DNA of 36,737 bases from Oceanisphaera pacifica. Lineage in GTDB: Bacteria > Pseudomonadota > Gammaproteobacteria > Enterobacterales > Aeromonadaceae. The stretch is taken from the NCBI RefSeq assembly GCF_017498065.1, contig NZ_JAGDFX010000023.1, forward strand, positions 1 to 36,737, in the 5' to 3' direction. A program made the translations under genes and the position numbers. Below are positions 22,376 to 36,208 of this stretch, in pieces. Numbering within the stretch: position 1 is the first letter of the stretch; the number at the start of each line of letters is the position of its first letter. The notes below the pieces were generated by a model that worked only from the letters and a program-made list of their open reading frames with translations, did no database searches and had not been told where the DNA came from.

Positions 22376-22526
22376 ATTTTAGAATTTTGCTGGTTATAAG
22401 CTACTATAGCCAGCTTTTATTCGTAAACAGCCAGAATTATAGATCTTTTGATCATATTGTCCAGAATAACACCATTCGTATCAAACATTGGATCTGTCTT
22501 ATCCAGCTTTAATTACATAGTGATTT

Positions 22527-22802
22527 GTAAGCGCTCTTAAATCGGCACTTTGACGCTTAAACAAACACTTCACGAGTATGTTAGCTTAATTTTACATTCC
22601 ATGGCAACAGAGCTTCGAGTTTTTCGAGCGTATCGGCAACAGCAATGTGGTCAAGAATGTATTTAATGTAGGTCTGTGGATCAAGGTTATTCGCCTTGGC
22701 CGTTTCTATTAGCGAGTAACACGCTGCACCGGCTTCTGCGCCTTTTCGTGTGTCGGCAAACAACCAGTTTTTACGACCAATGGCGAAGGCACGGATATGT
22801 TC
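22527..22802 (-). mobile_element. IS66 remnant A: 3' end of tnpC with terminal repeat
   Basis: The terminal GTAAGCGCTCTTAAATC at 22527 is the IS66-family end sequence. Minus-strand reading gives the tnpC C-terminus: IRAFAIGRKNWLFADT, then CYSLIETAKANNLDP and the final LEKLEALLPWNVKLS. The catalytic part and 5' half are gone. The frame continues upstream to 22922 (MIELKLVRQ onward) with residues I do not recognise. Confidence 0.85.
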
Positions 22803-22904
22803 TTTTAACTCGCTTGACATACAAAAATACGCTACGTGAAATTTAAGAGCGGATTGTCCGCTGCTATCTTTTATTATACGAGAAGAATTATTAACCTGCC
22901 GTAC

Positions 22905-23049
22905 AAGCTTTAATTCTATCAATTACCTTGTCGCGAAAATCACCATGCCCACGCGTAGCTCTCGGGTGAGCAACTCTAAAGCATATGGCATTGGCTGCCT
23001 CAAACTCCCAGAATGTTCTGGAAATCACTTCTCTATTTCGATAACCACC
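22905..23049 (-). pseudogene. Unidentified C-terminal coding fragment beside the IS66 ends
   Basis: An open minus-strand frame of 47 codons (from GGYRNREVISRTFWEFEAAN to a stop at 22905-22907) abuts the IS66 terminal repeat at 23050. It reads like a real protein tail rather than noise, but I do not recognise it. It may be a host gene cut by an IS66 insertion. Confidence 0.3.
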
Positions 23050-23224
23050 GTAAGCGCCCTTAAATCAGCACTTTGGCGCTTAAATAAACACTTTTCGAAC
23101 GCGTTAGCTTAACTTTACATTCCATGGCAGCAGGGTTTCGAGTTTTTCAAGCGTGTCGGCGACGGCAATGTGGTCAAGAATGTGTTTAATGTATCTCTGG
23201 GGATCAAGGTTATTCGACTTGGCC
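23050..23224 (-). mobile_element. IS66 remnant B: 3' end only
   Basis: It starts with the IS66 end GTAAGCGCCCTTAAATC and carries the last part of tnpC, closely similar to remnants A and C. Similarity stops at TTGGCC (23224), giving way to unrelated DNA. Confidence 0.8.
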
Positions 23225-23532: not shown

Positions 23533-23604
23533 ACCTAACGCCCGCATTTGCGGCAGGTTTGGAGCGGAGCGGAAAACCTGTCCGACAACATGCGCTTGTT
23601 AGCC
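23533..23604 (-). other. attC: Integron attC site 1 (Septu cassette)
   Basis: This 72-bp element is bounded by ACCTAAC (23533-23539) and GTTAGCC (23598-23604). Inside is an imperfect dyad: GCAGGTTT with AAACCTGTC and GCATTTGCG with ACATGCGC. Its outer core GGCTAAC (read leftward) matches the first bases of the Septu cassette (TTAGCC at attC 2), as expected for a circularised cassette. Confidence 0.88.
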
Positions 23605-23632
23605 TAAGTTTCATATTTTAGAACAAGCGATT

Positions 23633-24487
23633 TTAACCACTTTTAAATTCATTAAACCCACCATCACAGAACCATTCACTATTCATCATCGCCTGGTAAG
23701 CTGCTGTGTTCCATGAATTAACATGATTATTTCGCCGCGATTCTTCCTCCTCTTCGAGATAGGCCTTCACAGAATTTTTTCCTCCTTTTTGATGGAGTCT
23801 GTTTAATCGGAACTGAATTTCCGTCACGGTTGAATTTGCATTCGACATATACAAACTTCCAAGATCTAGCTCTCTGAAGTGAAATTTAATTCTTTCGTTG
23901 AGTGCCTCATCATAAACATCAACATCCGATGTATGGAATCGAATAGCTCCAGGGCTTTCTTCTTTTACTTCGGCAAAGAGCCACTGTTCACATGTTACAT
24001 CATCATAATAAGGATGGAGTGTTTGTTCGCTTTCGCTGCCAGGGACTTTATCCAATTTTGCTTTGTTACAATCTGAGCAGGCTGGTATCAAATTCAGTGG
24101 GACAACGATCAATGAGGGAAAATCAGATTTTGGTAAAAAGTGGTCTAAGGTTGAGACTACTCGCTGGCCACATAACGGGCAGATTCCATTTGGTGCTGCG
24201 TTTTTAAGTTGATCATATAAAGCTCTTCCTGGAGCTTTTTTTCCAACCATTCTTTGCGTATAAACTTTCTCCATCTCGGCCTTACCTACTACGCCGTCAA
24301 CACCATCACTACTCTCAATCAAGAACCACTGTTGCTCCTCAGACTTCTCTTGATATTCCCGAGCAGCTATCTCTATAGAGCCTGAGATTTTAAGAAATCT
24401 TTCTTTTAGAGCTCTATTTCTAACCTTACTTATGCACGTTTCATATACGTCTTTTGCAACCAGATCGGGCTTAGCAATTACCTTCAT
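23633..24487 (-). CDS. ptuB: HNH endonuclease, Septu PtuB-like
   Basis: This 284-aa protein has the HNH zinc-finger nuclease pattern: CPLCG near residue 99, STLDHFLPKS near 113-122, then NLIPACSDCNKAK near 130-143. The N-terminal 95 residues include KERFLKISGSIEIAAREYQ, helical. Its ATG overlaps the stop of the upstream ATPase by 4 bp. An AAA/ABC-type ATPase with an HNH partner is the make-up of the anti-phage system Septu, where the nuclease degrades nucleic acid when the ATPase senses infection. The pair is alone in an integron cassette and no retron or reverse transcriptase is nearby. Family call by motifs and gene pairing only. Confidence 0.82.
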   Translation of the reverse strand: MKVIAKPDLVAKDVYETCISKVRNRALKERFLKISGSIEIAAREYQEKSEEQQWFLIESSDGVDGVVGKAEMEKVYTQRMVGKKAPGRALYDQLKNAAPNGICPLCGQRVVSTLDHFLPKSDFPSLIVVPLNLIPACSDCNKAKLDKVPGSESEQTLHPYYDDVTCEQWLFAEVKEESPGAIRFHTSDVDVYDEALNERIKFHFRELDLGSLYMSNANSTVTEIQFRLNRLHQKGGKNSVKAYLEEEEESRRNNHVNSWNTAAYQAMMNSEWFCDGGFNEFKSG

Positions 24488-26052
24488 GCTTCACCTCTGT
24501 CTACTTCCTTGTCGAGAAATAGTCCTCGTAATACGCCTCTAGCCTCTGCACCAAGCTGGCCATTGAACTTTCTCAGTGCCTGCTTATAGGTGTCTGCAGA
24601 CTCAGCTTCTTTTTTTAGCATCTGATGGAAGCCTGAATCGGTTACTTCCAACCCAAACACCTCTCGTGTCAATACGCCCACATTTTCACCAAATGTTTCA
24701 GTTTCAGGCCTTTCAGCAACGGCATCAAACCCACTTCGCCTTAACTTCCATACACAACTTTTAGGTACTTCTTGGAGTATTACAGGGGAATGTGTTGCAA
24801 TAACCGCCACCGCATTTCTATGAGAGAGCAATTCAGATAAAGTACGTATAAACGCCGAAAGTAGCGGAGGATGTAGGTGGGATTCGGGCTCATCCAAAAG
24901 AACTAGGGTTTTCTCCTCAATTTTTTCAACTAACTTAGCAATAGTCAGTAATACAATTGCATGGCCTGAACTTAGCTTGGCAAAAATGTTTTTCGTAGTA
25001 TTCTCCAAATCATCAGTTGAAGACAGTACTACATCGGCAAGTGCAATATCTTTAAAAAGACTATCTGTTTCTAGATCTCGAATTGCCTCAACCAATCGAT
25101 CTTGGTATCCAAATCGCCGAATATTGTTTAAACAATAGGAAAATTCTCTATTTAGCATTGGGCGGCTCATAGGAATGTGTTCGCCATCTTTGGTTGTTGA
25201 TTCCTGTTTTAAACCGATATAAGCGTAATTGAGCCCCTCTGTTTTATCTTTCCGTTCAGGTATCGGCTCAAAAGGATCAAATGCGCTAAATGCTACAGAA
25301 ACGACACCAGCAAACATTTCTTGAAGATCTTCTCTCTTAGTAGACTCCTTGCGACCAGTTACAACTGAAAAACACCCATCACTCTCTTGAGTTGTGTCAG
25401 TATCCACAAGAGCCTTAACCATTTTATGAAGAAGGTAGGTTTTACCAACACCATTTCGACCAATTAAGACATGAATATTTGAAGGAGGGTTAGATTCTGG
25501 ATCGACATAAAAATCCAAATCTAATCCAGCAGAACTTTTTCCTTGCGGAAGCGAATAAGAGAAATCAAATTCTGTACGCAGCTTTCCGCCATTAAGTAAT
25601 CGCTTAAACTGCCCTTTTATTGAAGCAATACTTACTTCTCGCAGCAAAGATTCCTTCATTACCTTTTCATTGAAAGCGATATCATAAGTACTATGATCAT
25701 GCACTACATCGTTTAAGCTTTTTAAAATGCAGGCCCTTAGTTCTTGATCTAAAGCATATAGGTTTTGATAGTATTCATCGCTTTGCCCAAGTGCAAAGAA
25801 AGCTTTATCTAGTGCTGGGAATTCTTTGGGAAGTTTTTTTTGAGTCCACCCACTCTCTTGACCTACATAGCCAATTTTTACTCCCCCGATATCATGTTCC
25901 TCTCCATTTGCGTCATAGACCACTAGGTGAAATGTAGATTTAAAACCAAAATCATCCCAGTTATTCGCCTCCAGATAGGCAATATTTACAGTACGCTTTC
26001 GTTTAGAGTAGTAGCGCGAATAAGGGGGAACGTTGAATAGCAAATCAACCAT
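24484..26052 (-). CDS. ptuA: AAA/ABC-type ATPase, Septu PtuA-like
   Basis: This is a 522-aa protein. After an N-terminal region of about 190 aa come Walker A in VLIGRNGVGKT near residues 193-203, an ABC-like signature LSSGHAIVLL near 357, Walker B LVLLDEPESHLHPP near 378-391 and the H-loop VIATHSP near 415. This OLD/RecF-like ATPase architecture is that of PtuA. It is the first gene of a two-gene cassette with the HNH nuclease. The start lies 51 bp from attC 2, and I see no obvious promoter, so expression may depend on read-through. Confidence 0.85.
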   Translation of the reverse strand: MVDLLFNVPPYSRYYSKRKRTVNIAYLEANNWDDFGFKSTFHLVVYDANGEEHDIGGVKIGYVGQESGWTQKKLPKEFPALDKAFFALGQSDEYYQNLYALDQELRACILKSLNDVVHDHSTYDIAFNEKVMKESLLREVSIASIKGQFKRLLNGGKLRTEFDFSYSLPQGKSSAGLDLDFYVDPESNPPSNIHVLIGRNGVGKTYLLHKMVKALVDTDTTQESDGCFSVVTGRKESTKREDLQEMFAGVVSVAFSAFDPFEPIPERKDKTEGLNYAYIGLKQESTTKDGEHIPMSRPMLNREFSYCLNNIRRFGYQDRLVEAIRDLETDSLFKDIALADVVLSSTDDLENTTKNIFAKLSSGHAIVLLTIAKLVEKIEEKTLVLLDEPESHLHPPLLSAFIRTLSELLSHRNAVAVIATHSPVILQEVPKSCVWKLRRSGFDAVAERPETETFGENVGVLTREVFGLEVTDSGFHQMLKKEAESADTYKQALRKFNGQLGAEARGVLRGLFLDKEVDRGEA

Positions 26053-26102
26053 ATCATCTACCCATTATTTATAATTTTAGAAAATTAAGCCAGATTCAAT
26101 CA

Positions 26103-26174
26103 GGCTAACGCCGCGCTCTGCGGCAAATTTGGAGCGCAGCGGAAAATTTGTCCGACAGCAGCGCCTTGTTAGGT
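26103..26174 (-). other. attC: Integron attC site 2 (restriction-modification cassette)
   Basis: This 72-bp site is bounded by GGCTAAC and GTTAGGT and is closely similar to attC 1 (GGCAAATTTGGAGCGCAGCGG versus GGCAGGTTTGGAGCGGAGCGG regions). Its ACCTAAC core (leftward) complements the TTAGGT that begins the restriction-modification cassette at attC 3. Confidence 0.88.
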
Positions 26175-26176
26175 GC

Positions 26177-27031
26177 TTATACTGTCATTAGTGTCGAGTC
26201 TGAAATTTTGGCTTCTAGCTTTTCTATAATTTCTTCGAGTTCTATTCGTGCTTCAGTTTCCAAGCCTAAACAAGTAGAAATCCCTTCCGCGTCAGTACTC
26301 TTTCGATCTGCCAAATTCAAACGAAAATTACCTTCATTATTGCTTAGCTCATAAGCATGAAAGTGCATTGAGTCACCAACTCTTGCATTATCATTTATAT
26401 GAGCAAATGAGAACTCTCTGGCCATATATTCTAATAAGTGATTTTGTACCACTAGCACAAGATGCTTATTAATATGTTCAAATGTCTCAATTTTATGATG
26501 CATTTGAACTAGAATTGTTTTGGCCGTCATCTTCCAGTTCATGCCAAATGGCTTAGTTGAATCAATATCTTCTTGCTTCGCGTCAATTCCTTTTGAACTC
26601 ACAAATCGTTGCCTAAAGGGCCAGACAGTTCCAGTTGTATCAAGCGTTTGCAATTCAATTGCGACGAAATCTTTAACTTTTCTGTCGCGAGTAGAAACTA
26701 GAAAATAGTCAACATTACCACCAGGAATTCCGACCTCTGCTACAACGTGCAACTCGTTTCCTGGCTCATGAGAAGTAAGCAAGTGAAGGCAGTCGATAAA
26801 TATTTGCCTTCTTTCAAGAAGTCGATGAGGACAGATTATTACATCCTTTTTGTCTCTGCCATAAGTAACTGAGCAAGTACCTATAGTTAGCTCTGCTTCG
26901 CTCTTTCTGTTTTTTAAACACTTTCGGCCAAGATAAGGACATTGTTGTTGGCCAACAAGATCATTCCAATCAGTTTCGTTGTTATGAATAGAAATGCCGT
27001 ATATTTCTGCTATATTGTTTGCTGATGCCAT
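26177..27031 (-). CDS. NotI-like restriction endonuclease
   Basis: This is a 284-aa protein. A Cys-rich N-terminal part (CPYLGRKCLKNRKSEAE near 30-46, then TCSV and ICPH) matches the Cys4 iron-binding fold of NotI. The nuclease core shows AEVGIPGGNVDYFLV (Glu, and Asp near 105) and VAIELQ near 123, the PD-(D/E)xQ-type active site described for NotI. NotI itself is longer (383 aa), so this is a short member. It overlaps the methyltransferase by 22 bp and ends 3 bp from the attC. The recognition site is not readable from sequence and need not be GCGGCCGC. Confidence 0.82.
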   Translation of the reverse strand: MASANNIAEIYGISIHNNETDWNDLVGQQQCPYLGRKCLKNRKSEAELTIGTCSVTYGRDKKDVIICPHRLLERRQIFIDCLHLLTSHEPGNELHVVAEVGIPGGNVDYFLVSTRDRKVKDFVAIELQTLDTTGTVWPFRQRFVSSKGIDAKQEDIDSTKPFGMNWKMTAKTILVQMHHKIETFEHINKHLVLVVQNHLLEYMAREFSFAHINDNARVGDSMHFHAYELSNNEGNFRLNLADRKSTDAEGISTCLGLETEARIELEEIIEKLEAKISDSTLMTV

Positions 27032-28086
27032 TCGCTACATCTTTCCTCTGCTAATTCTAAATACTCTTCCGATAAGTCTACGCCAATCGATTTTCTATTA
27101 AATGATTTTGCAACAAGCATTGTCGTACCTGTACCACAAAAGGGGTCGAAGACAATCCCGTCAGGGGGGCAGGTAGCGAGAATAGGGATTTTGCAAAGAT
27201 CTTCTGGGTAAGCTGCGTAGTGTTTTTTACGCTTTTGGGTATCTTCAGGCAAAATATCCCAAACATCACTAGGCTTACTACCTTTAGGGTGATACCTAAG
27301 AATACAGTACCCCTTATCTCTAAGCTCTTTGGCTCGTCCTGAAACTTTCTCTGAATCAGAGTGTGTTGCTCTTTGTTGGCCACGAATGATCATTCTAAAG
27401 TCAGATAACTCACCCTTTCTGATTTTTTCTAGCGTTTCGTTAAGAGCACCTAGAGCATTCTTTTTTTCTTCCATACTTAAATCAGTAGACAGTTCTATTT
27501 GGCGCTTGTATCTCACTCCGCTGACTCCAGTCGCTGATACGACAGCTCCGTTTTCTACTTTGGCCTCGCGAGGTTTTTTCCTGACTGCATCAGCATCGTA
27601 ATAATAACCTTTAGACTTTTTTACAAAGTGAAATACGTTTTCATGGATGTTTCTCAACTTATCTTTGGAATTATCAGGTGCCCCTTTTACTTTATTCCAA
27701 ATTACGGAGTTTCTTAAGACCCAGCCCTGCTCATCAATTAGCTCAAAAGCAATTCGCCACGGGATGCCTAATAGAGCTTTGCTCTTATAGGTGTCTCCAA
27801 TATTCAACCAAAATGAGCCTTCATCTTTAAGGACTCTTTTAAGTTCAAGAAAGACTTCACATAGTTCATTGATATAATCTTTATGATTTTTCTCTAGACC
27901 AATGCCTCCGCCTTCATATTGGCGCTGCCCCCAATATGGTGGGCTTGTAATACACATATCTATAGATTGATCGGGCATTGATTTAAGTACTTCAAGGCAA
28001 TCGCCTTGAATAAATACAGGAGTGATGCTTGCATCACTCCTGTATTTATTTAGATCTTTTTTGATTTGATTGCTTAAGGATGTCAT
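27010..28086 (-). CDS. DNA methyltransferase (beta-class, probably N4-cytosine)
   Basis: This is a 358-aa protein. Catalytic motif IV CITSPPYWGQRQ is near residues 43-54, and the AdoMet motif I (FDPFCGTGTTMLVAKSF) is near 311-327, followed by IGVDLSEEYLELA. The order IV before I defines the beta group. TSPPYW is usual for N4-cytosine enzymes, though N6-adenine cannot be excluded. It protects host DNA from the NotI-like nuclease whose gene overlaps its end, so methylase is made first. A six-base gap separates it from the RHH gene upstream. Confidence 0.9.
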   Translation of the reverse strand: MTSLSNQIKKDLNKYRSDASITPVFIQGDCLEVLKSMPDQSIDMCITSPPYWGQRQYEGGGIGLEKNHKDYINELCEVFLELKRVLKDEGSFWLNIGDTYKSKALLGIPWRIAFELIDEQGWVLRNSVIWNKVKGAPDNSKDKLRNIHENVFHFVKKSKGYYYDADAVRKKPREAKVENGAVVSATGVSGVRYKRQIELSTDLSMEEKKNALGALNETLEKIRKGELSDFRMIIRGQQRATHSDSEKVSGRAKELRDKGYCILRYHPKGSKPSDVWDILPEDTQKRKKHYAAYPEDLCKIPILATCPPDGIVFDPFCGTGTTMLVAKSFNRKSIGVDLSEEYLELAEERCSEWHQQTI

Positions 28087-28092
28087 ATCTTC

Positions 28093-28278
28093 TCAATTGT
28101 GTGCTTTCTTAGCTTCTCGGTCAGCAAGTTCTTTTATCCAAGCAGAAACAGAAAGCTTGGCTTTTTCTGCTGCCTTCTTGTAAAGAGCTTTCTGCTCTGG
28201 AGTTACCCTTATTGGAGACAAAGTCTCAGAAGCAGAATTTGATTTTGGGGGTCTTCCCCGAGGCTTATCAATGTTCAT
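28093..28278 (-). CDS. Small ribbon-helix-helix-like regulator of the R-M cassette
   Basis: This 61-aa protein starts basic (KPRGRPPKS) and continues LSPIRVTPEQKALYKKAAEK then LSVSAWIKELADREA, the beta-strand/helix/helix pattern of RHH (CopG/Arc-like) repressors. I prefer the internal ATG at 28278. A longer reading from 28332 adds hydrophobic residues encoded by the promoter region and is less likely. A perfect 16-bp palindrome lies 12 bp upstream. No Shine-Dalgarno is visible, so translation may be leaderless. It probably plays the role of a controller protein for the restriction-modification genes (inference). Confidence 0.65.
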   Translation of the reverse strand: MNIDKPRGRPPKSNSASETLSPIRVTPEQKALYKKAAEKAKLSVSAWIKELADREAKKAHN

Positions 28279-28290
28279 AATGAGGAGTAT

Positions 28291-28306
28291 TATTGTATAT
28301 ACAATA
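28291..28306 (-). promoter_or_regulatory. Perfect palindrome/promoter before the RHH gene
   Basis: TATTGTATATACAATA is its own reverse complement over 16 bp. It overlaps a likely -10 (TATACAAT) and lies 12 bp before the chosen start, the expected position for autorepression by an RHH protein. Confidence 0.6.
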
Positions 28307-28356
28307 AATATAAGCAACAGATACTTTTGCACAGATGAATCTAGCTACTGGAGGAC

Positions 28357-28432
28357 ACCTAACGCCGCCAACACAGGCGAGCGTCAGCGAGTCCAGCCAG
28401 CTTGCTGGCGTTTGTGATTGGCCTTGTTATGA
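28357..28432 (-). other. attC: Integron attC site 3
   Basis: This 76-bp site is bounded by ACCTAAC and GTTATGA, with an internal dyad (GCCAGCTTGCTGGC region). The TCATAAC core (leftward) fits the TTATGA that begins the next cassette at attC 4. Confidence 0.85.
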
Positions 28433-28690
28433 GCTTAAGTAAAAGTACGAATTTACCTCTGTGCTCCGAAAGTATCAGATAAAACGCCCGCGCCGCCGCT
28501 GCCAATATTGAATGTAGCTCGCCGGATGTTCAACGAGATGCCCAGCTGAGATATTGAATATTGAGAACCACAGCCAAGTACCTTGCCCAACTCTCCGAAA
28601 GACAATGCCAACGCTGCCCTTTTACTCTGCCCTTTCAGTCAGCTCGATAATAACGTTATAAATTGACTCCGTGGCTGGCAGACTATTGAC
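28433..28690 (-). other. 258-bp integron cassette without an ATG-initiated gene
   Basis: The DNA between attC 4 and attC 3 contains no ATG frame of length on the minus strand. One frame is open from the TGA near 28632 to the stop at 28453. See the small candidate CDS within it. It may otherwise be a non-coding or promoter cassette. Confidence 0.7.
28453..28611 (-). CDS. Candidate TTG-initiated small protein in the short cassette
   Basis: A 52-aa reading from TTG 28611 gives MALSFGELGKVLGCGSQYSI, later LNIRRATFNIGSGGAG and LSDTFGAQR. AAAAGGG stands about 4 bp upstream as a possible SD. No family is recognised and no membrane segment is clear. The frame alone spans most of the cassette, but without ATG or conservation data this may be chance. 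Confidence 0.3.
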   Translation of the reverse strand: MALSFGELGKVLGCGSQYSISQLGISLNIRRATFNIGSGGAGVLSDTFGAQR

Positions 28691-28790
28691 TCATAACGCC
28701 TCGTTAAGAGGCAATAAAATTGTTGGCTAAAATTAGCGACGAAGGAGCAAAAGCCAACTGTTTTTTGTCCTTTTAAACGACTTGTTATAC
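28691..28790 (-). other. attC: Integron attC site 4
   Basis: This 100-bp site is bounded by TCATAAC and GTTATAC, with long dyad arms TTGGCTAAAATT... and AGCCAACTG. It is very similar to attC 5 although the cassettes differ. Confidence 0.88.
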
Positions 28791-28791
28791 G

Positions 28792-29349
28792 CTAAATACT
28801 CAATACGACAACTTCTACTTTACCATGTTTATCATAAGGTTGAATTTGCATTTTAATTTGATTCTCGTTTGTTAGCTCTAACGAACTTTCCGAAGCTTTA
28901 TATTTACTATAAATAACATTAACAGCATTAATGCCTAAAGCGATTTCTTTTTCCATGCGAAGAACCAAACCAAACGAAGTTGTAGCACCACCATTTGTTC
29001 TATAAAGAACATAGCTTTCATCACCAACCTTTAGTCTGTTTATTTCCTCGAAAGAATAATCCACACCTTTAGTTGTTATATCCGCGTAATCAAGCTTTGC
29101 AAAAGTAAATGTTAAAAAACAAGGAATAGCCAAACAAACCGAAATAATAACACCTATTACTTTTACCGATTTAGTGTCCCTTAACGTAGACCAAAAAAAT
29201 GCAGAAATAGGTAAAATAATCGCTAATACCATAACAAATAGGTAATTATATTTGGTATTAACAAACCTTAGCTCCCATGGAAAATAGATCATATTAAGGC
29301 AAGTTGTCAAAGTAACAATAATTAGAAGTATATTTGAGACTTGTTTCAT
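28792..29349 (-). CDS. Membrane protein of unknown function (integron cassette)
   Basis: This protein of 185 aa starts at ATG 29349 (MKQVSNILL). A longer frame upstream runs through the attC core and is unlikely to be translated. Three hydrophobic helices (about 5-22, 33-52 and 60-82) are followed by a soluble C-terminal domain of about 100 residues containing VDYSFEEINRLKVGDESYVL. The family is not recognised. Its stop falls 2 bp from attC 4, typical cassette economy. Confidence 0.7.
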   Translation of the reverse strand: MKQVSNILLIIVTLTTCLNMIYFPWELRFVNTKYNYLFVMVLAIILPISAFFWSTLRDTKSVKVIGVIISVCLAIPCFLTFTFAKLDYADITTKGVDYSFEEINRLKVGDESYVLYRTNGGATTSFGLVLRMEKEIALGINAVNVIYSKYKASESSLELTNENQIKMQIQPYDKHGKVEVVVLSI

Positions 29350-29369
29350 GTGACCAAAACCTGAGTAGC

Positions 29370-29470
29370 GTATAACGCCCTCGTTAATGGGCAAAATTTA
29401 GTTGGCTAAAATTGTTGAGGAACGAAACACAGCCAACTGTATTTTGTCCTGATTAAACAGCTTGTTATAT
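29370..29470 (-). other. attC: Integron attC site 5
   Basis: This 101-bp site is bounded by GTATAAC and GTTATAT and is highly similar to attC 4 (shared TTGGCTAAAATT and AGCCAACTGT blocks). GTATAAC faces the cassette start in attC 5 itself: the TTATAC at the start of the 185-aa cassette matches attC 4's GTATAAC core. Confidence 0.88.
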
Positions 29471-29474
29471 GCCA

Positions 29475-29738
29475 TTACCACCAGACTCTAGCATGAATTG
29501 CTAAAGAAAATAAAACATAACCCACACCCGAAATACCCCAAAAGAATTTAGGAGAATTTAAAGTTTTAATACTTACAAAGGCTGATAGAGCGATCAAGAC
29601 TAAGCCAATAAATAAACTAGGATTTGGGAAAGCATCGTAACCGTGACCTACTTCTATTGATGGTATTGGCGGAATAGCTAAAGCTAGTGCAGCAAACACC
29701 AAAATAACGATTAATAATTGATAAAGAGCAGGTTTCAC
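29475..29738 (-). CDS. Small membrane protein (integron cassette)
   Basis: This 87-aa protein has three hydrophobic helices (about 4-24, 42-58 and 66-85) and a short PIPSIEVGHGYDAFPNPS loop. It starts with GTG 29738 preceded by the SD AAGGATG. The stop is 5 bp from attC 5. The family is not recognised; small membrane proteins of this kind are frequent in integron cassettes. Confidence 0.7.
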   Translation of the reverse strand: MKPALYQLLIVILVFAALALAIPPIPSIEVGHGYDAFPNPSLFIGLVLIALSAFVSIKTLNSPKFFWGISGVGYVLFSLAIHARVWW

Positions 29739-29756
29739 AAATCATCCTTGAAAGGC

Positions 29757-29849
29757 ATATAACGCCCCAATAACCGGCAGCTGGAATGTAGCGAAGCGCA
29801 GTGTAAGCTGTCCGGCGCCGCAGGCGCGTAGTTGATTGGTTTGTTATGA
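29757..29849 (-). other. attC: Integron attC site 6
   Basis: This 93-bp site is bounded by ATATAAC and GTTATGA with internal dyad GGCAGCTGG/GCTGTCCGGCGCC. Its TCATAAC core (leftward) complements the TTATGA at the start of the first cassette (30661-30667). Confidence 0.85.
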
Positions 29850-29850
29850 A

Positions 29851-30645
29851 TCATATGCTTGGCAAATGTACTTTAGGGCCTTTCCATGAAAATGCCTCAA
29901 GCAACCTCTGAAAGATCGAGTGTAGTGCTTCCATTGATGCTGGAGATACATCGACCTCTCCATAATGACCATCAGCCATGGTGTTCCCATACTTGGTTCC
30001 ATTTAGGCAATTTAACATCAAGGCACCGTTTTCGGATTTTACGAGTTCATTGTCGATGGGCTGAAGTTCAAGGGGTTGAGGTGGCAGACCTCTTCGTCCG
30101 GCTCCGAGCCCTCGTGACCTATCTTCCATATGCTGGGAAGTATTTCTTACGCCTCGTAGGTCAGGAAAAGAGATTCCGATTTCATCGTGCAGCCCTGAGA
30201 TTTCTTCAGGAACATTTGGCTGATTTTTTAGAACTCTTAGAAACTTGTCGAATGAATCTAGAGCATACAAGAATGCACGAGCATGCATAAAGGCTTGATT
30301 GTGCTCAAATTCTCTGGGTAATTTGCCGGACTGCCACTGCTCTCGCTTAAATATTATTTCTGTTTGTAGATGTATTTCATCCCATACAGAATGGTCATAT
30401 GGGTTTCCGTACTTTTGCACTATTTCTCGTCGGATTTCAGATCGACGATTAGCATCTGCTTCCCATTGCTCTCTAGATGGAGGCCTTCTATCTCTTTGTA
30501 AAGTATGTAGGAACATATTAAAAGCAAGATTAGCTTCGTAAAACTGACCTTCTAAGCTACGAAGAATGCCTTCTATTTCCCAACTCCATTCTCGATCTTC
30601 GCTTTCAAGCCAAGTTCCTGGCTTCACTATTTCATAGATATACAT
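29851..30645 (-). CDS. Unknown protein with a HEPN-like RNxxxH motif, first cassette
   Basis: This 264-aa, largely helical soluble protein carries RGVRNTSQHMEDR near residues 164-176, whose R-N-x-x-x-H matches the catalytic motif of HEPN ribonucleases. Preceding helices (ARAFLYALDSFDKFLRVL near 125-142) fit the HEPN four-helix layout. Overall family is not recognised. A strong SD AGGAGGG sits 5 bp before ATG. It is the cassette nearest attI and so the best expressed if a cassette promoter is active. It could be a toxin-type or defence RNase, but no antitoxin partner is present. Confidence 0.65.
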   Translation of the reverse strand: MYIYEIVKPGTWLESEDREWSWEIEGILRSLEGQFYEANLAFNMFLHTLQRDRRPPSREQWEADANRRSEIRREIVQKYGNPYDHSVWDEIHLQTEIIFKREQWQSGKLPREFEHNQAFMHARAFLYALDSFDKFLRVLKNQPNVPEEISGLHDEIGISFPDLRGVRNTSQHMEDRSRGLGAGRRGLPPQPLELQPIDNELVKSENGALMLNCLNGTKYGNTMADGHYGEVDVSPASMEALHSIFQRLLEAFSWKGPKVHLPSI

Positions 30646-30991
30646 CGATCCCTCCTGGATTCATAACAGCTAATTCAACGACAAGTGACATCTATGCAAA
30701 CCGCATCTATTTCGCGAAGCGTAATCTTAAATATTTAAATTAACTTATTTATCAAACACTTAAACTGCGCAGTAGTGACACATCAAGAAATAAGCGTCAA
30801 ATGTCGTTTTTTACACAAAGTTTCTGTTCGCTTATTTATTTGTAAGTTTATCGACTACTGCTGATTTTTCAGTAGTTTATAAGCTTTATAGAGCAAAATC
30901 ATGAAGTTTTACGACAATTGTCGTATAGATCCGCGTTTCATTAGGAAATTATCACCGCAGCAGCTAGGCCACTATGTATTAAAGTGAGCGT
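30646..30991. other. attI: attI/promoter region between first cassette and intI remnant
   Basis: The core site TCATAAC (30661-30667; GTTATGA leftward) marks the insertion point of the first cassette. No attC-like dyad lies upstream, so this is attI rather than attC. Leftward -35/-10 candidates (TTGATA and TATTTA near 30757-30730) could be the cassette promoter. A hairpin ACTACTG/CAGTAGT is at 30854-30876 and a perfect palindrome TACGACAATTGTCGTA at 30910-30925. Confidence 0.6.
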
Positions 30992-31186
30992 ATGGTTATG
31001 GATGTACCACCCAGACTGCCAGACAAACCAACTCGCTTCATTGCTCCACTGCGCACTTTGATTCGTAGTTGAAATCTGGCCTACAAAACCGAGCAAACCT
31101 ATTGTCATTGGATTAAGCGGTTTATTCGCTTTCATGGCATGCGCCACCCCTCCACCTGTTCAAACACTGCTATATTTACTTCGTAA
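30992..31186 (+). pseudogene. intI: Integron integrase intI, N-terminal remnant with internal stop
   Basis: Plus-strand reading from ATG 30992 gives PPRLPDKPTRFIAPLRTLIRS, then a TGA (31066 region), then in the same frame NLAYKTEQTYCHWIKRFIRF and HGMRHP. This is the characteristic N-terminus of integron integrases (RTEQAYVHWIKRFI-type). Similarity ends after RHP (about 31150), and the frame stops at 31184-31186. The catalytic domain is absent within the window. The gene points away from the cassette array, as intI does. It is therefore an inactivated, truncated integrase. Confidence 0.85.
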
Positions 31187-31402
31187 CCCGTAATTATGCA
31201 TCGCTCCAATGGGTTATACGGGTGCAGAGCGTCTCCCTGCCTAAGCGGCGCTCTGCATCCTCCTATCTCTTGGCTATGAGGCATAATGACCCTTCTGCCT
31301 TTGTGTTAGCCAGCTATCTACCTCTCTCAACCTAAACATCACCGCTGCCTGCCGTGACTCTCCCATTTTTATGGGTCGTGGGAAAGTAGGATCTCTTTTT
31401 AT
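31187..31402. other. Non-coding DNA between intI remnant and IS66 end
   Basis: No gene is seen. The loss of the rest of intI must have happened here, between the intI homology end and the IS66 terminal repeat at 31403. Confidence 0.4.
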
Positions 31403-31594
31403 GTAAGCGCCCTTAAATCAGCACCCTTGCAGAACGGCTACTTAGCTTAATCCAGCTCTACATTCCATGGCAGCAGGGCTTCGAGTTTTTCTAATGTGTC
31501 AGCGACAGCTATGCGGTCAAGAATGTGCTTGATGTAGGCTTGTGGATCGAGGTTATTTGCTTTGGCGGTTTCTATCAGTGAGTAACGAGCGGCG
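31403..31594 (-). mobile_element. IS66 remnant C: 3' end of tnpC
   Basis: It starts at IS66 end GTAAGCGCCCTTAAATC and encodes ARYSLIETAKANNLDPQAYI followed by LEKLEALLPWNVELD. At 31595 it joins directly to an IS4-family fragment, creating an apparent 109-aa chimeric frame (31447-31776) that is not a genuine gene. Confidence 0.85.
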
Positions 31595-31928
31595 CGGTGT
31601 ATGTCAGCCAGGTTGGCGTTGGATTGCGAGCTCAGTGTTTGTACGATGGCACCGATGAGATGGAGTGGAGAGAGCTGCCGTAACCGTTTGATAAAGCCAG
31701 TCTTACGGGCCAGACCGAGCAGGTATTGAGGTTCAAACAGGGATTTAAGATTTTGCTGGATAGTGGTAATCTTCATGGGTGCTGTCTGTTGTGAGTTTTT
31801 TGATTTTTGGCGAAACCATTAGATCACAGCAGCAGCACACTTCAAACCATTTTTCTGATAAATCAATCGACTAGCCTCCCTACAGCAAGCTTTGACAGCA
31901 GCCTCCGCTTAAGATCCTACGAATGAGT
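31595..31928 (-). repeat. 334-bp inverted repeat, left copy (IS4-family 5' end)
   Basis: It is the reverse complement of 34517-34850. It contains the first 60 or so codons of an IS4-family transposase (MKITTIQQNLKSLFEPQYLL, then ARKTGFIKRLRQLSPLHLIG) and about 160 bp of upstream IS end. The transposase is cut after ADIHR at exactly the same base in both copies. Confidence 0.88.
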
Positions 31929-32092: not shown

Positions 32093-32125
32093 CCGCATCA
32101 AAAATAATTGATGATAGGAATGATG

Positions 32126-32488
32126 ATGAAGGGATTGAAAGTTGTTGCTGCTGTGAGCTTAGTTGTAGCTTTATCTGGTTGTTCTAGTATTTTAACTGAG
32201 AAGACCCAGCGCGTTAATGTTGTTTCTAATGCTAAAAATCTTCAAGTAGAAATCGATGGCCAAGTGCAGAACGCACCAGGTATCGTTACCATTCTTAAAG
32301 AAAATAAAGATAAAACTCTAACTGTAAAAACCGAAGGTTGTGAGCAGCAAATTGCTTTAAACAAGCAAGTTGAGCCTACTTTCTTTGTTAATATTTTATC
32401 TGGGGGTGCTTTTGGTTCTACAACTGATTACTCCACTGAAAAAATGTGGCGTTACCAAGAGTCTGTTGAGATCCAGTGCGCTCAGTAA
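32126..32488 (+). CDS. Small outer-membrane-type lipoprotein
   Basis: This 120-aa protein has a lipoprotein signal: KGLKVVAAVSLVVALSGC, with the lipobox LSGC and Cys lipidation. The mature part is beta-rich (RVNVVSNAKNLQVEIDGQVQ) with two further Cys (EGCEQQ and EIQCAQ) that may form a disulfide. Ser after the Cys (CSS) suits outer-membrane sorting. Of several possible starts I choose the ATG at 32126, with AGGA 6 bp before it. Its stop overlaps the next start (TAATG). Exact function unknown. Confidence 0.78.
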   Translation: MKGLKVVAAVSLVVALSGCSSILTEKTQRVNVVSNAKNLQVEIDGQVQNAPGIVTILKENKDKTLTVKTEGCEQQIALNKQVEPTFFVNILSGGAFGSTTDYSTEKMWRYQESVEIQCAQ

Positions 32489-34275
32489 TGAATTTATTAT
32501 CTTATATAAAAAGAAGCCTAGCGGCTTCTTTTTTTTTAGTAAGTCTAAATGCTTACTGTCATATTAATTCGCTTGATGACATTAGTGTGAGCGAAGAGAA
32601 TCAGCTGCGCGCTTTATTTCATATCCAAGATGATGCACCTAAAATATTAGATAATAAATTTTTATTGCAGTCACCTTATATAGGATTTAAACAAGAACTT
32701 AAAAATAATTACGCTGACTTTATATCGGAAGAGACGAGAGGCAGTTATCTTTGTCGCTTTCCTGCTCGATCATTGTGGTTGTCCCGTAAACTTTCAATGC
32801 TGCCTCCTAGCTTTCAACATTGTGAAGAGTTAAGCCGTTATCTGAGATCTGTGCCTGCAGATGCTATTAGTGTTATCTATGCTTCTGAGAACATTGTCAG
32901 TCCGAGCAGCTTTATGGGGCACTCTTTTCTTAAGCTTAAAGATAAAGATGATAATTTCAGTCATGCTGTCTCATACTTTACTAATGTAGAAGGGTTTAAT
33001 TTACCTAAGATAATGTTTGAGTCCTTGGTAACGGGTAAGGAAGGTTATTTTATAATATCCCCTTATCAAGAGGCTAAAGATTATTATAAGGATATTGAGG
33101 GTAGGAATGTTTATGAATATAACTTGTTGCTGGATGGTTTCGAAAGAGAACTCATTAAATTACATCTTTGGGAATTGAAAGATAAGAAAATAGATTATTA
33201 TTTCCATACCAATAACTGTGCCACTTTGACGCTGGATATTTTGTCTATCGTTGAGCCCAGTTTAATAAAGTACAGTGAAGAGTGGCTGAGTCCTCTTGAT
33301 GTTATAAAGTATATCAATGACACTAGCATGGTTAAAAATACTGAAGCTGCTCCTGCAATTGGCTGGCGAGTTAGAGCTTTTGGTGAGGTATATAGTTACG
33401 CTCAGCGCCAAGCATTTTTAAGAGCAGTGAAGTCAGGAAGTATCAGCACTCACCACTCGGGGCAAGAACCAGATTATTTAAGTTATGAATATCAACAAGC
33501 CCTAAATGACTGGCTTTACCAATCTGAGGAACTGACTAAAAAAGTTTATGAAAAGAATAACGCAGTATTATTAAATGAGACTTCGGACTATGAATTAGAT
33601 TTAAGTGGGTATAAAAACCCTATATTACGCTCGCCAGATAGTCAGCTGGCAATAGGTTTTAATCATAATGAATATAATAAGGAGTTGTTGTTTTCTTGGT
33701 TGCCAGCTTCTCATTTATTAACTGACGATAATACTAATGCATTTAGCGAGTCCTCATTGGAGGTGTTAAAGAGCACTGTTAGTATTAATGAAAGAAGTGT
33801 TTCATTGCATGAATTAACTTTATATGGAATTGAGAGCTATATTCCTTACGATTCTATCGTTGGAGGTTGGTCTGGCAAGTTTAAGCTAGGCTGGGAACGG
33901 GGCGGTTATGCATCGTATGGGCATAATGAACGCTTTAATTTAACTGCAGCATTAGGAATGGCGACAGATATACACCCTGCTATGTTGACTTATTTAACTT
34001 TTGGTTCTGAAGTGTCCGCTAATAACAGAGGGTTGTGGGCAGCTCCTCAATTAGAGACCGGCAGTTTCATGTATTTAGCCGGCGGCTCTAAACTTCGTCT
34101 TAAATATCGATTAAACTTTAATGAATTGAATGATAGTGAATTTATTTATGCTATGGAATTAACTAATACACATTATTTTAATAAAAATGTGGCATTTGAT
34201 ATTGGTTTGGCTAAGTATGTAGGCGAACAGGTTAATGAATCACAGCTGTTATTTAATTACAGATATTATTACTAA
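32488..34275 (+). CDS. Lnb-like (DUF4105) periplasmic/outer-membrane protein
   Basis: This 595-aa protein has a signal peptide (IKRSLAASFFLVSLNAYC). The DUF4105 domain, now called the Lnb N-terminal periplasmic domain, is seen in ASENIVSPSSFMGHSFLKLK near 130-149, with His as likely catalytic residue, and HTNNCATLTLDIL near 238-250 with the conserved Cys. The C-terminal 200 residues alternate polar and aromatic residues and end in NYRYYY, like an outer-membrane beta-barrel. Bacteroides Lnb is a lipoprotein N-acyltransferase; activity here is untested. It is translationally coupled to a lipoprotein gene, its possible substrate or partner. An intrinsic terminator lies in its first codons. Confidence 0.8.
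   Translation: MNLLSYIKRSLAASFFLVSLNAYCHINSLDDISVSEENQLRALFHIQDDAPKILDNKFLLQSPYIGFKQELKNNYADFISEETRGSYLCRFPARSLWLSRKLSMLPPSFQHCEELSRYLRSVPADAISVIYASENIVSPSSFMGHSFLKLKDKDDNFSHAVSYFTNVEGFNLPKIMFESLVTGKEGYFIISPYQEAKDYYKDIEGRNVYEYNLLLDGFERELIKLHLWELKDKKIDYYFHTNNCATLTLDILSIVEPSLIKYSEEWLSPLDVIKYINDTSMVKNTEAAPAIGWRVRAFGEVYSYAQRQAFLRAVKSGSISTHHSGQEPDYLSYEYQQALNDWLYQSEELTKKVYEKNNAVLLNETSDYELDLSGYKNPILRSPDSQLAIGFNHNEYNKELLFSWLPASHLLTDDNTNAFSESSLEVLKSTVSINERSVSLHELTLYGIESYIPYDSIVGGWSGKFKLGWERGGYASYGHNERFNLTAALGMATDIHPAMLTYLTFGSEVSANNRGLWAAPQLETGSFMYLAGGSKLRLKYRLNFNELNDSEFIYAMELTNTHYFNKNVAFDIGLAKYVGEQVNESQLLFNYRYYY
32511..32537 (+). terminator. Intrinsic terminator embedded in the Lnb-like signal-peptide codons
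   Basis: AAGAAGCC-TAGC-GGCTTCTT followed by nine T. It lies 23 bp after the lipoprotein stop and codes for KRSLAASFF of the next protein. It would end most lipoprotein transcripts and let only a fraction read into the downstream gene. Confidence 0.75.
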
Positions 34276-34518: not shown

Positions 34519-34850
34519 TCATTCGTAGGATCTTAAGCGGAGGCTGCTGTCAAAGCTTGCTGTAGGGAGGCTAGTCGATTGATTTATCAGAAAAATGGTT
34601 TGAAGTGTGCTGCTGCTGTGATCTAATGGTTTCGCCAAAAATCAAAAAACTCACAACAGACAGCACCCATGAAGATTACCACTATCCAGCAAAATCTTAA
34701 ATCCCTGTTTGAACCTCAATACCTGCTCGGTCTGGCCCGTAAGACTGGCTTTATCAAACGGTTACGGCAGCTCTCTCCACTCCATCTCATCGGTGCCATC
34801 GTACAAACACTGAGCTCGCAATCCAACGCCAACCTGGCTGACATACACCG
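34517..34850 (+). repeat. 334-bp inverted repeat, right copy (IS4-family 5' end)
   Basis: It mirrors 31595-31928 base for base as far as I can read. It begins at ACTCATTCGTAGG inside the Lrp gene, runs into the transposase start at 34669 and is cut after the codon run ADIHR at 34850. Beyond that the DNA is IS66 in the opposite orientation. Confidence 0.88.
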
Positions 34851-36208
34851 TTGTTTTAAGGTGTAGTCGATAGCCGCTCTCAGTGCGCCGCATTTCATAA
34901 TTCTGGCGGCGTTGGTCTCCAGCCATTGTTTAAAATCGTTCAGTACCGGCACGCTGATTTCTTGGCGCGCCGTTAATCGCTCTGCATCGGTTTTATCTGC
35001 TATGTTGCTTTCTATGCGATACAGTTTGCGGATATAGCTGAGCGCGATATCGGCTTTATTTACGATGCCTTTTTTAGCTTTAGCTCTGGCTTTAGGGTCA
35101 GTACTTTTATTGGCTTCCACAAATTTACGGCGTGCATGATCCCAGCATCCAATGCGGGTAATGCTGTTTTGTTTGCATACTTTACTGTAACCAGAATAAC
35201 CATCAGCTTGCAGCACGCCATTAAAATCATCGAGCAGGCGCACAGCCACGCTACCGGCACGCGACGGATCGTATTCAAAGAGCACGCTGAGTTGATGGGG
35301 CGGCCCACCTCGGGTCACCCACATCCACTTATCAGATTGTGCTGCTTTTCCGTCTTCTTTCAGCACTTGTAGACGGGTTTCATCAGCTTGAAGATAATCA
35401 CCGCTGTTTTGCACTTCTCGCATCAGGTGCAGCAAGGGTTGAGCCGCCTCAGCAAAGCGCATGCACCATTGCGCCATGTTATTACGGTAAATCGACTGGC
35501 CTAGCCTTTTGAATTTACTTTCTTGACGATACAGCGGCATGCCATACACATATTTGTCGGTAATAATGTGCGCAATCAGGGGGTAGTGACCGAGCACTTA
35601 CCAAAGGGGTGTACCGGACGTTGCGCGGCCACCATTTGGTCATCTTTGGTATCATAGTTAGCGGTAAACACGGCTTTTTCTTGCCAATGCTCTAACACTT
35701 TGAGTTGAGCGGGGATGTAGTGCAGCTCTTCTTTCACTTTGGTGAAGAAGGTCTTCTCCGCGCCGGCCTTTTCAAGCTCAGTCAGCGTATGCTCAATGCG
35801 CTCGCGCACCAAGTTTGCCGAGAAGCCCCGCTGGCGTGTTTGGCGTACTTTACGCTGCTGGGCAATTTCTTCACTTTCTTCAAGCGTTTCAGGCAGCACA
35901 TCAAACAGTTCATCGAGTTGGGTTTCCAGCTCGGCTTCATCAAAGAGATTGAGCTGAAAGGTGGATTTCTCGCTGCTGGCACTGAACTTCTGCGTTTTGA
36001 GCAGGCGGTTCATTTCTTCCAGTAGCTCGATACGACGATGGGCAGCGTCTAACGCTTTATCTTGATTTAATAAGCGCGCATTTTGGTCATCAATAACAGT
36101 TTGAAACTGCTGCTGCATCTGAGCCATAACCAAACGCAAATCAGCGGCACTAAGGCCGCTTAAATCAGGGGTTTTAATGGTGCGTTTGACGTGTTTTTTC
36201 ATGCCCAA
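34851..36208 (-). pseudogene. tnpC: IS66 family transposase tnpC, 5' two-thirds, frameshifted
   Basis: The first part (36208-35576) has the leucine-zipper and zinc-finger regions of TnpC (KKHVKRTIKTPDLSGL, LLEEMNRLLKTQKF). The second (35597-34851) carries the DDE domain: QADETRLQVL and VLQADGYSGYS as the two Asp motifs. One extra C in CCCCCTG near 35583 breaks the frame between TTP and LIAHIITDKYV. The gene stops at AAIDYTLKQ where it meets the IS4 fragment; the catalytic Glu region is missing. The best start is ATG 36202. The upstream tnpA and tnpB and the left IS end are absent. Confidence 0.88.

Follow-up and report, generated by a model that had tools for sequence, protein, structure and literature searches.

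A probable chromosomal integron platform in Oceanisphaera pacifica, with a decayed integrase gene and a cassette array that may be stabilised rather than strictly frozen

The DNA analysed here (the window) is a stretch of 36,737 nucleotides from Oceanisphaera pacifica in which the start of an integron integrase gene (intI) lies beside an attI site and an array of six cassettes. The intI remnant, delimited by translation, profile search and DNA alignment, occupies 30992..31163 on the plus strand and comprises the first 57 codons with a TGA at codon 27 (31070-31072). In the plus-strand frame from 30992, the 26 residues before the TGA read MVMDVPPRLPDKPTRFIAPLRTLIRS, NLAYKTEQTYCHWIKRFIRFHGMRHPSTCS follows it, and integrase homology then ends at about 31163. 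In a whole-genome search the integron-integrase model NF011946 matches 31019-31168 across this one internal stop (E = 1.7e-9), below its curated cutoff; the intact IntI on contig C31 of this genome likewise falls short of it (331 versus 435 bits). The same model finds matches in all 14 control genomes, above the cutoff in none of them, and because of this low specificity DNA alignment is the stronger test of identity. Positions 30662-31161 align with the intact intI-attI region of C31 (76% over 515 bp) and 30665-31163 with the broken intI-attI region of contig C20 (73% over 518 bp). Both alignments span attI, the promoter region and the start of intI, and their ends place the break in intI at 31161-31163. 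At the protein level the remnant aligns with the intact C31 IntI at 72% over residues 1-61. The unspecific profile matches could also be produced by a fragment of a Xer or phage recombinase or by a chance open reading frame (ORF), but the extended DNA identity to a region with an intact IntI, attI included, refutes that origin, which we regard as practically untenable. The sequence-only reading had recognized an interrupted and truncated integrase N terminus at 30992..31186 and considered the array's own integrase lost; both points are upheld, the gene being stopped at codon 27 and broken after codon 57, so that this is no complete integron with a functional intI, while the last ~23 bases of the proposed extent lie beyond the homology.

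How old is this lesion? Where codons can be compared (56 of them), most differences between the remnant and other IntI sequences lie at third positions; against the intI of genome G022, first, second, and third positions account for 3, 3, and 16 differences, respectively (dN 0.047, dS 0.64). This predominance makes the loss of intI look young relative to the age of the split between platforms, as far as substitution patterns can tell. The remnant also has the highest dN relative to C31 (0.12) among six Oceanisphaera-group sequences. Its changes at residues 17, 18 and 27 affect residues otherwise identical in 12/12 other sequences, and a further change is found at residue 19, which is Q in 10 of the other sequences and R in 2.

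Platform alignment locates the attI core, a AACAGCTAATT block facing the cassettes, at 30663..30700 on the minus strand. This core, which starts at 30665, is one base off the 19-platform consensus within the first ~34 columns and near-identical to the attI core of C31. The AACAGCTAATT core is invariant in 19/19 platforms, an invariance to be read within a set selected for being homologous. The site adjoins the intI remnant and is homologous to that of the 18 other platforms, in agreement with the earlier proposal of an attI-like core between remnant and array with intI oriented away from the cassettes. In a tree of 19 attI regions the window is weakly placed (46 and 54 at the adjacent nodes). 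No match was obtained for a consensus promoter (Pc) in 30600-31100 or for any Rfam family in the window.

A decayed LexA (SOS) operator is found at 30970..30991 on the plus strand. Eleven bases present in C31 are absent between an upstream palindrome and the start codon, so that the LexA box is destroyed; the best match to CTGTN8ACAG in the region has three mismatches, and the locus no longer qualifies as a LexA-controlled integrase. The exact motif is present in all 10 platforms with an intact intI and in two of the nine with a broken one (C20 and G019); of the other seven, G011 departs from it at one position and six do so at two or three. According to the available text of Cambray et al. 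(PMC3108266), integrase inactivation correlates with loss of LexA control. The window fits this correlation, with either loss possibly coming first; C20 and G019, which keep an exact LexA box despite intI loss, mean that the two are not always coupled. The palindrome itself, TACGACAATTGTCGTA, is a perfect 16-bp element at 30910..30925 upstream of intI, defined by sequence and platform comparison. When up to two mismatches are allowed, the five attI platforms are its only sites in the 3.1-Mb genome, compared to one site for a reversed control. A match to its core is kept in the window, C4, C8, G011, and G014b, where intI is absent or only a remnant, and also in C20 and G019; in G014a and G005 it has disappeared along with the region replaced, and in G022, whose IntI is intact, it is altered. 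Marinobacter platforms carry a related palindrome. Visual inspection shows TGTCRT hexamers again in the attI core, so that IntI itself or some regulator may bind the palindrome.

The six attC sites lie at 23535-23602, 26105-26172, 28359-28430, 28693-28788, 29372-29468, and 29759-29847, with the bottom strand corresponding to the plus strand of the window. A regex-plus-fold scan recovered precisely these six on the plus strand and none on the minus strand, compared to 22 matches on both strands of 100 surrogates that a first-order Markov model generated for the whole window. Trained on 39 attC sites of other loci, with those of the window excluded, a covariance model likewise detected 6/6 (E = 1.6e-13 to 1.6e-5) and no further site in the window at E ≤ 1. 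Single-strand DNA folding gave a divided picture of the bottom strands: three sites clearly beat their shuffles (0/200 as good), and the other three are less clear (4, 14, and 11 of 200 shuffles as good), with the ends of 29372-29468 left unpaired in the lowest-energy fold. The number of sites claimed from the sequence is thus borne out by the scan and the held-out model, while the expected folding is clear for half of them. All six share one orientation, attI faces the array, and the genes to the left of attI are integron cassettes, as proposed; the correct order and orientation of attI, first cassette, and attC sites also indicate that the link between array and attI is intact. With at least two attC sites and no functional intI nearby, the array falls under the definition of a CALIN, although a bare CALIN needs neither the recognizable intI start nor the conserved attI that remain here.

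All cassettes are on the minus strand, with bounds taken from the covariance model and ORF list or, for cassettes 5 and 6, profile searches. Cassette 1 (29759..30664) joins attC 29759-29847 to an uncharacterised 264-amino-acid protein (29851-30645), and cassette 2 (29372..29758) joins attC 29372-29468 to an 87-amino-acid protein (29475-29738) matching DUF7649 below cutoff. Cassette 3 (28693..29371; attC 28693-28788) encodes an uncharacterised protein in an ORF at 28792-29394, for which an ATG at 29350 fits the cassette bounds better by eye. Cassette 4 (28359..28692; attC 28359-28430) is without an ORF of at least 80 amino acids. Sequence spanning its body (28431-28692) has counterparts at 73 to 81% in G017 and G014 arrays (L121, L125, and L126), and its 72-nucleotide attC is about 90 to 97% conserved in several arrays. 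Cassette 5 (26105..28358; attC 26105-26172) contains a NotI-family endonuclease (26177-27031), an N6/N4 methylase (27010-28086), and a small NikA/TacA1-like protein (about 28099-28281); a perfect 20-nucleotide inverted repeat with a 2-nucleotide loop (28009-28050) lies within the methylase gene, close to the start codon. Cassette 6 (23535..26104; attC 23535-23602) pairs an HNH protein (23633-24487) with a PtuA-like ATPase (24484-26052). The ATPase matches a PtuA model with an E value of 1.8e-203 and remains far under the NCBIfam PtuA cutoff (49 of 500 bits). Its partner matches PF01844 (E = 5e-5) and, in PADLOC, the candidate system PDC-M01B only (best E = 2e-109). A PtuA-type ATPase with an HNH partner is the composition of Septu (PtuA/PtuB).

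Profile matches thus bear out the earlier claim of defence genes among the cassettes through these two candidate pairs, and cassettes 5 and 6 are likely anti-phage systems, namely a methylase/NotI-family endonuclease pair and a Septu-like ATPase/HNH pair. Integron defence cassettes of Vibrio and Xanthomonas are reportedly the subject of 2025 papers in Science and Nat Microbiol. In the integrons of these two genera, restriction-modification and other defence systems occur as cassettes, as in the window, while the window has two- and three-gene sets within single cassettes, whose defence role is predicted. A search of 297 genomes returned the cassette 1 protein from two, its own and G052, which belongs to another family (77%) and has its relative bracketed by attC sites. 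Plasmids, too, carry relatives of genes from cassettes 1 and 5 (up to 61%), and four such plasmid stretches yielded no attC at E ≤ 1, indicating that these genes are not confined to cassettes. The endonuclease of the 26177-28086 pair has plasmid relatives at 59 to 61%, with a methylase adjoining and no attC found in both records examined (pBspH9 of Acinetobacter sp. NEB 394 and a Klebsiella plasmid).

The flanks of the platform bear traces of IS66 elements. Profile and sequence comparison placed a C-terminal remnant of IS66 TnpC to the right of the intI break (31447..31776, minus strand), and two stretches left of the array end (22527..23224, minus strand) resemble the IS66 remnant at 31393-31567 (80 to 81%). 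A 306-bp perfect inverted repeat (31595-31900 and 34545-34850) and an IS66 DDE transposase (34716-35597) together suggest recent IS66 activity beside the break. Homology of 31151-31400 to the region downstream of intI was considered and rejected: in six of seven relatives at least 22 of 200 shuffles aligned as well, and the seventh comparison, with G005 (6/200), was not taken as homologous either. The left flank is collinear with that of G014 up to 22469, with different genes beyond, and the right flank at 32108-34275 is 71 to 75% similar to those of three other genus members, a fourth matching over 30 bases. No clean empty site was resolved through these left (G014) and right (genus members) flank matches. 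The IS66-like remnants on both sides and the end of collinearity at 22469 would be in keeping with a platform imported or cut up by IS66-driven rearrangement, that is, a fragment of a larger integron; the correct order and orientation of attI, first cassette, and six attC sites speaks against it, and we consider this origin unlikely.

The genome (G000) contains five attI platforms, namely the window, C31, C20, C4, and C8. A search for an IntI that could act in trans, as the sequence-only reading had envisaged, returned a single intact one, on C31, with 330 residues, both integrase domains, and an exact LexA box. C4 and C8 carry attI stretches without intI near contig ends, and C20 has a broken intI. 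Genome-wide, 24 attC matches (E ≤ 1) were obtained among 150 of 1037 candidates scored: six each on C15 and C31, five on C4, three on C35, two on C1, and one each on C13 and C20. Contig-end repeats are common to C1, C20, and C31, and another set to C35, C8, C4, and the window, so that several pairings of these arrays with attI platforms are possible. In comparisons of C15, C31, C4, C1, C35, and C20, the only cassette ORF common to arrays is one shared by C31 and C1 at 86% protein identity, which is no proof of recent cassette exchange within the genome. A 1.3-kb element with a weak IS200-like Y1 match lies in or near three cassette arrays at 91 to 93% identity (L118, L209, and L208, the last at 6948-8242 of C1), and an attC-like sequence abutting it in C1 suggests that the element may target attC.

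Among named genomes, the closest IntI is that of Candidatus Oceanisphaera merdipullorum (92%), followed by seven of Marinobacter (81 to 85%); other Marinobacter IntI proteins are at 60 to 67%. DNA matches to the platform were found in 15 of 61 genomes searched, its own included, and matches of >200 bp define 12 platforms in seven genomes of the same genus, each species represented by one genome. Intact intI is missing from nine of these 12 platforms, whose lesions are by eye of at least seven kinds, and the C4 lesion includes sequence resembling those of G014a and G005. G000, G017, and G022 encode an intact IntI of this type, and other genomes encode a second type (46 to 49% identity); at E ≤ 1e-20 no IntI was detected in 6 of 23 genus genomes. 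The seven Marinobacter chromosomal integrons share with the window the attI core and a related palindrome; their LexA box, decayed in the window, is exact in 7/7. A flanking protein of about 1,050 to 1,105 amino acids is common to all seven, whereas the same test found no common protein in ten Oceanisphaera-group flanks, although G005 and G014a proved orthologous. The idea that all Oceanisphaera-group platforms occupy unrelated sites was accordingly dropped in part. The flanking proteins of the seven intact Marinobacter platforms resemble imuA, imuB, and, for the protein of about 1,050 to 1,105 amino acids, an error-prone polymerase, which would put these integrons (L039 to L045) beside putative SOS mutagenesis genes.

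Can an array change after its own integrase is lost? G005 and G014, two related species whose nearest named relatives are Oceanisphaera, bear on this question. G005 and G014a have the same intI replacement, with 94% identity across some 670 bp. On the intI side, 4.8 kb of flanking sequence is collinear between them at 95%, although G014 has an additional ~12 kb ahead of the platform; past the arrays the two align again, at 96% over the 290 bp examined. Shared flanks and a shared replacement indicate that locus and lesion are common to both. At E ≤ 0.01, six attC sites are found in G005 and ten, one of them isolated, in G014. No ORF of at least 70 amino acids from G005 matches the G014 stretch at 1e-8, and the only matches of at least 100 bp besides the platform and far end are two attC-bearing segments of 110 to 116 bp. 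With the lesion shared and no cassette ORF detected in common, the cassettes probably changed once the cis integrase was gone, an integrase in trans being the simplest route. Both genomes are now without IntI at E ≤ 1e-20, so that the helper is one we infer; homologous recombination with imported DNA is a possible alternative. In both (L127 in G005 and L125 in G014), the intI replacement contains, as read by eye, a small ORF that continues in frame into the final IntI residues and is conserved between the two species.

Three papers make an array with a dead intI an already known kind. Xanthomonas has inactivated intI repeatedly and carries CALINs at multiple loci, and mobilisation of CALINs in trans is possible (PMC12444791); some Shewanella genomes have two or more integrase genes, as well as CALINs in the presence or absence of intI (PMC9229058); and in class 2 integrons a premature stop codon can interrupt intI2 (PMC8876359). 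The window group resembles the Xanthomonas case, as described there, in the repeated lineage-specific loss of intI with arrays kept and, for the window, in defence genes among cassettes and CALINs at other loci; it differs in having five attI platforms in one genome instead of a retained intI at one site (ilvD). Searches for publications on integrons in Oceanisphaera and for relevant ones on attI without intI found none. The multi-dock genome and the G005/G014 turnover are absent from the literature searched, in the portions available, which is weak evidence of novelty.

We consider it highly probable that the window is a chromosomal integron platform with its own integrase decayed, an explanation supported by the homology of remnant and attI to an intact platform and by the recovery of 6/6 attC sites with the held-out model. 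Cassette capture would date from a time when this platform, or a sister integrase, still worked; loss of SOS control would be linked with loss of intI, as reported for other integrons; and the C31 IntI could still serve the surviving attI and attC sites in trans, leaving the array stabilised and not strictly frozen. The sequence-only reading had called the array frozen outright. In a rival account of this kind, nothing would have moved since the intI break and selection on defence genes would keep the array in place. The dead cis integrase and destroyed LexA box agree with this, the sole ORF shared by arrays of the genome gives no sign of recent exchange, and Xanthomonas strains sharing an intI lesion usually have identical arrays in the accessible text of PMC12444791. 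The intact C31 IntI with its near-identical attI core points the other way, as do G005 and G014, which share the loss of intI but, unlike the Xanthomonas strains, have different arrays with no cassette ORF detected in common. With one genome per species, no direct sign of recombination of the window array after the break was seen, and complete freezing is quite possible, if somewhat short of an even chance. That the single SOS-controlled IntI of C31 serves all five attI docks, so that satellite arrays keep exchanging cassettes in trans, is a tentative and rather doubtful extension of the decayed-platform explanation.

If such trans service were real, four docks would have lost or broken intI and yet kept attI and the platform-specific palindrome. 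Loss of intI, often together with LexA control, would then be a route to safe satellite arrays, and exchange would go on only as long as a driver remains, which is no longer so in G005 and G014. An array that lacks an integrase of its own is usually taken for a dead store. If intI-less attI docks are filled in trans, active integrons would be undercounted, and defence cassettes would circulate via loci annotated as inactive. Trans filling can be tested with the G005/G014 pair and with the five-platform genome, and the window brings the loss of LexA control and the loss of intI together in one small locus.
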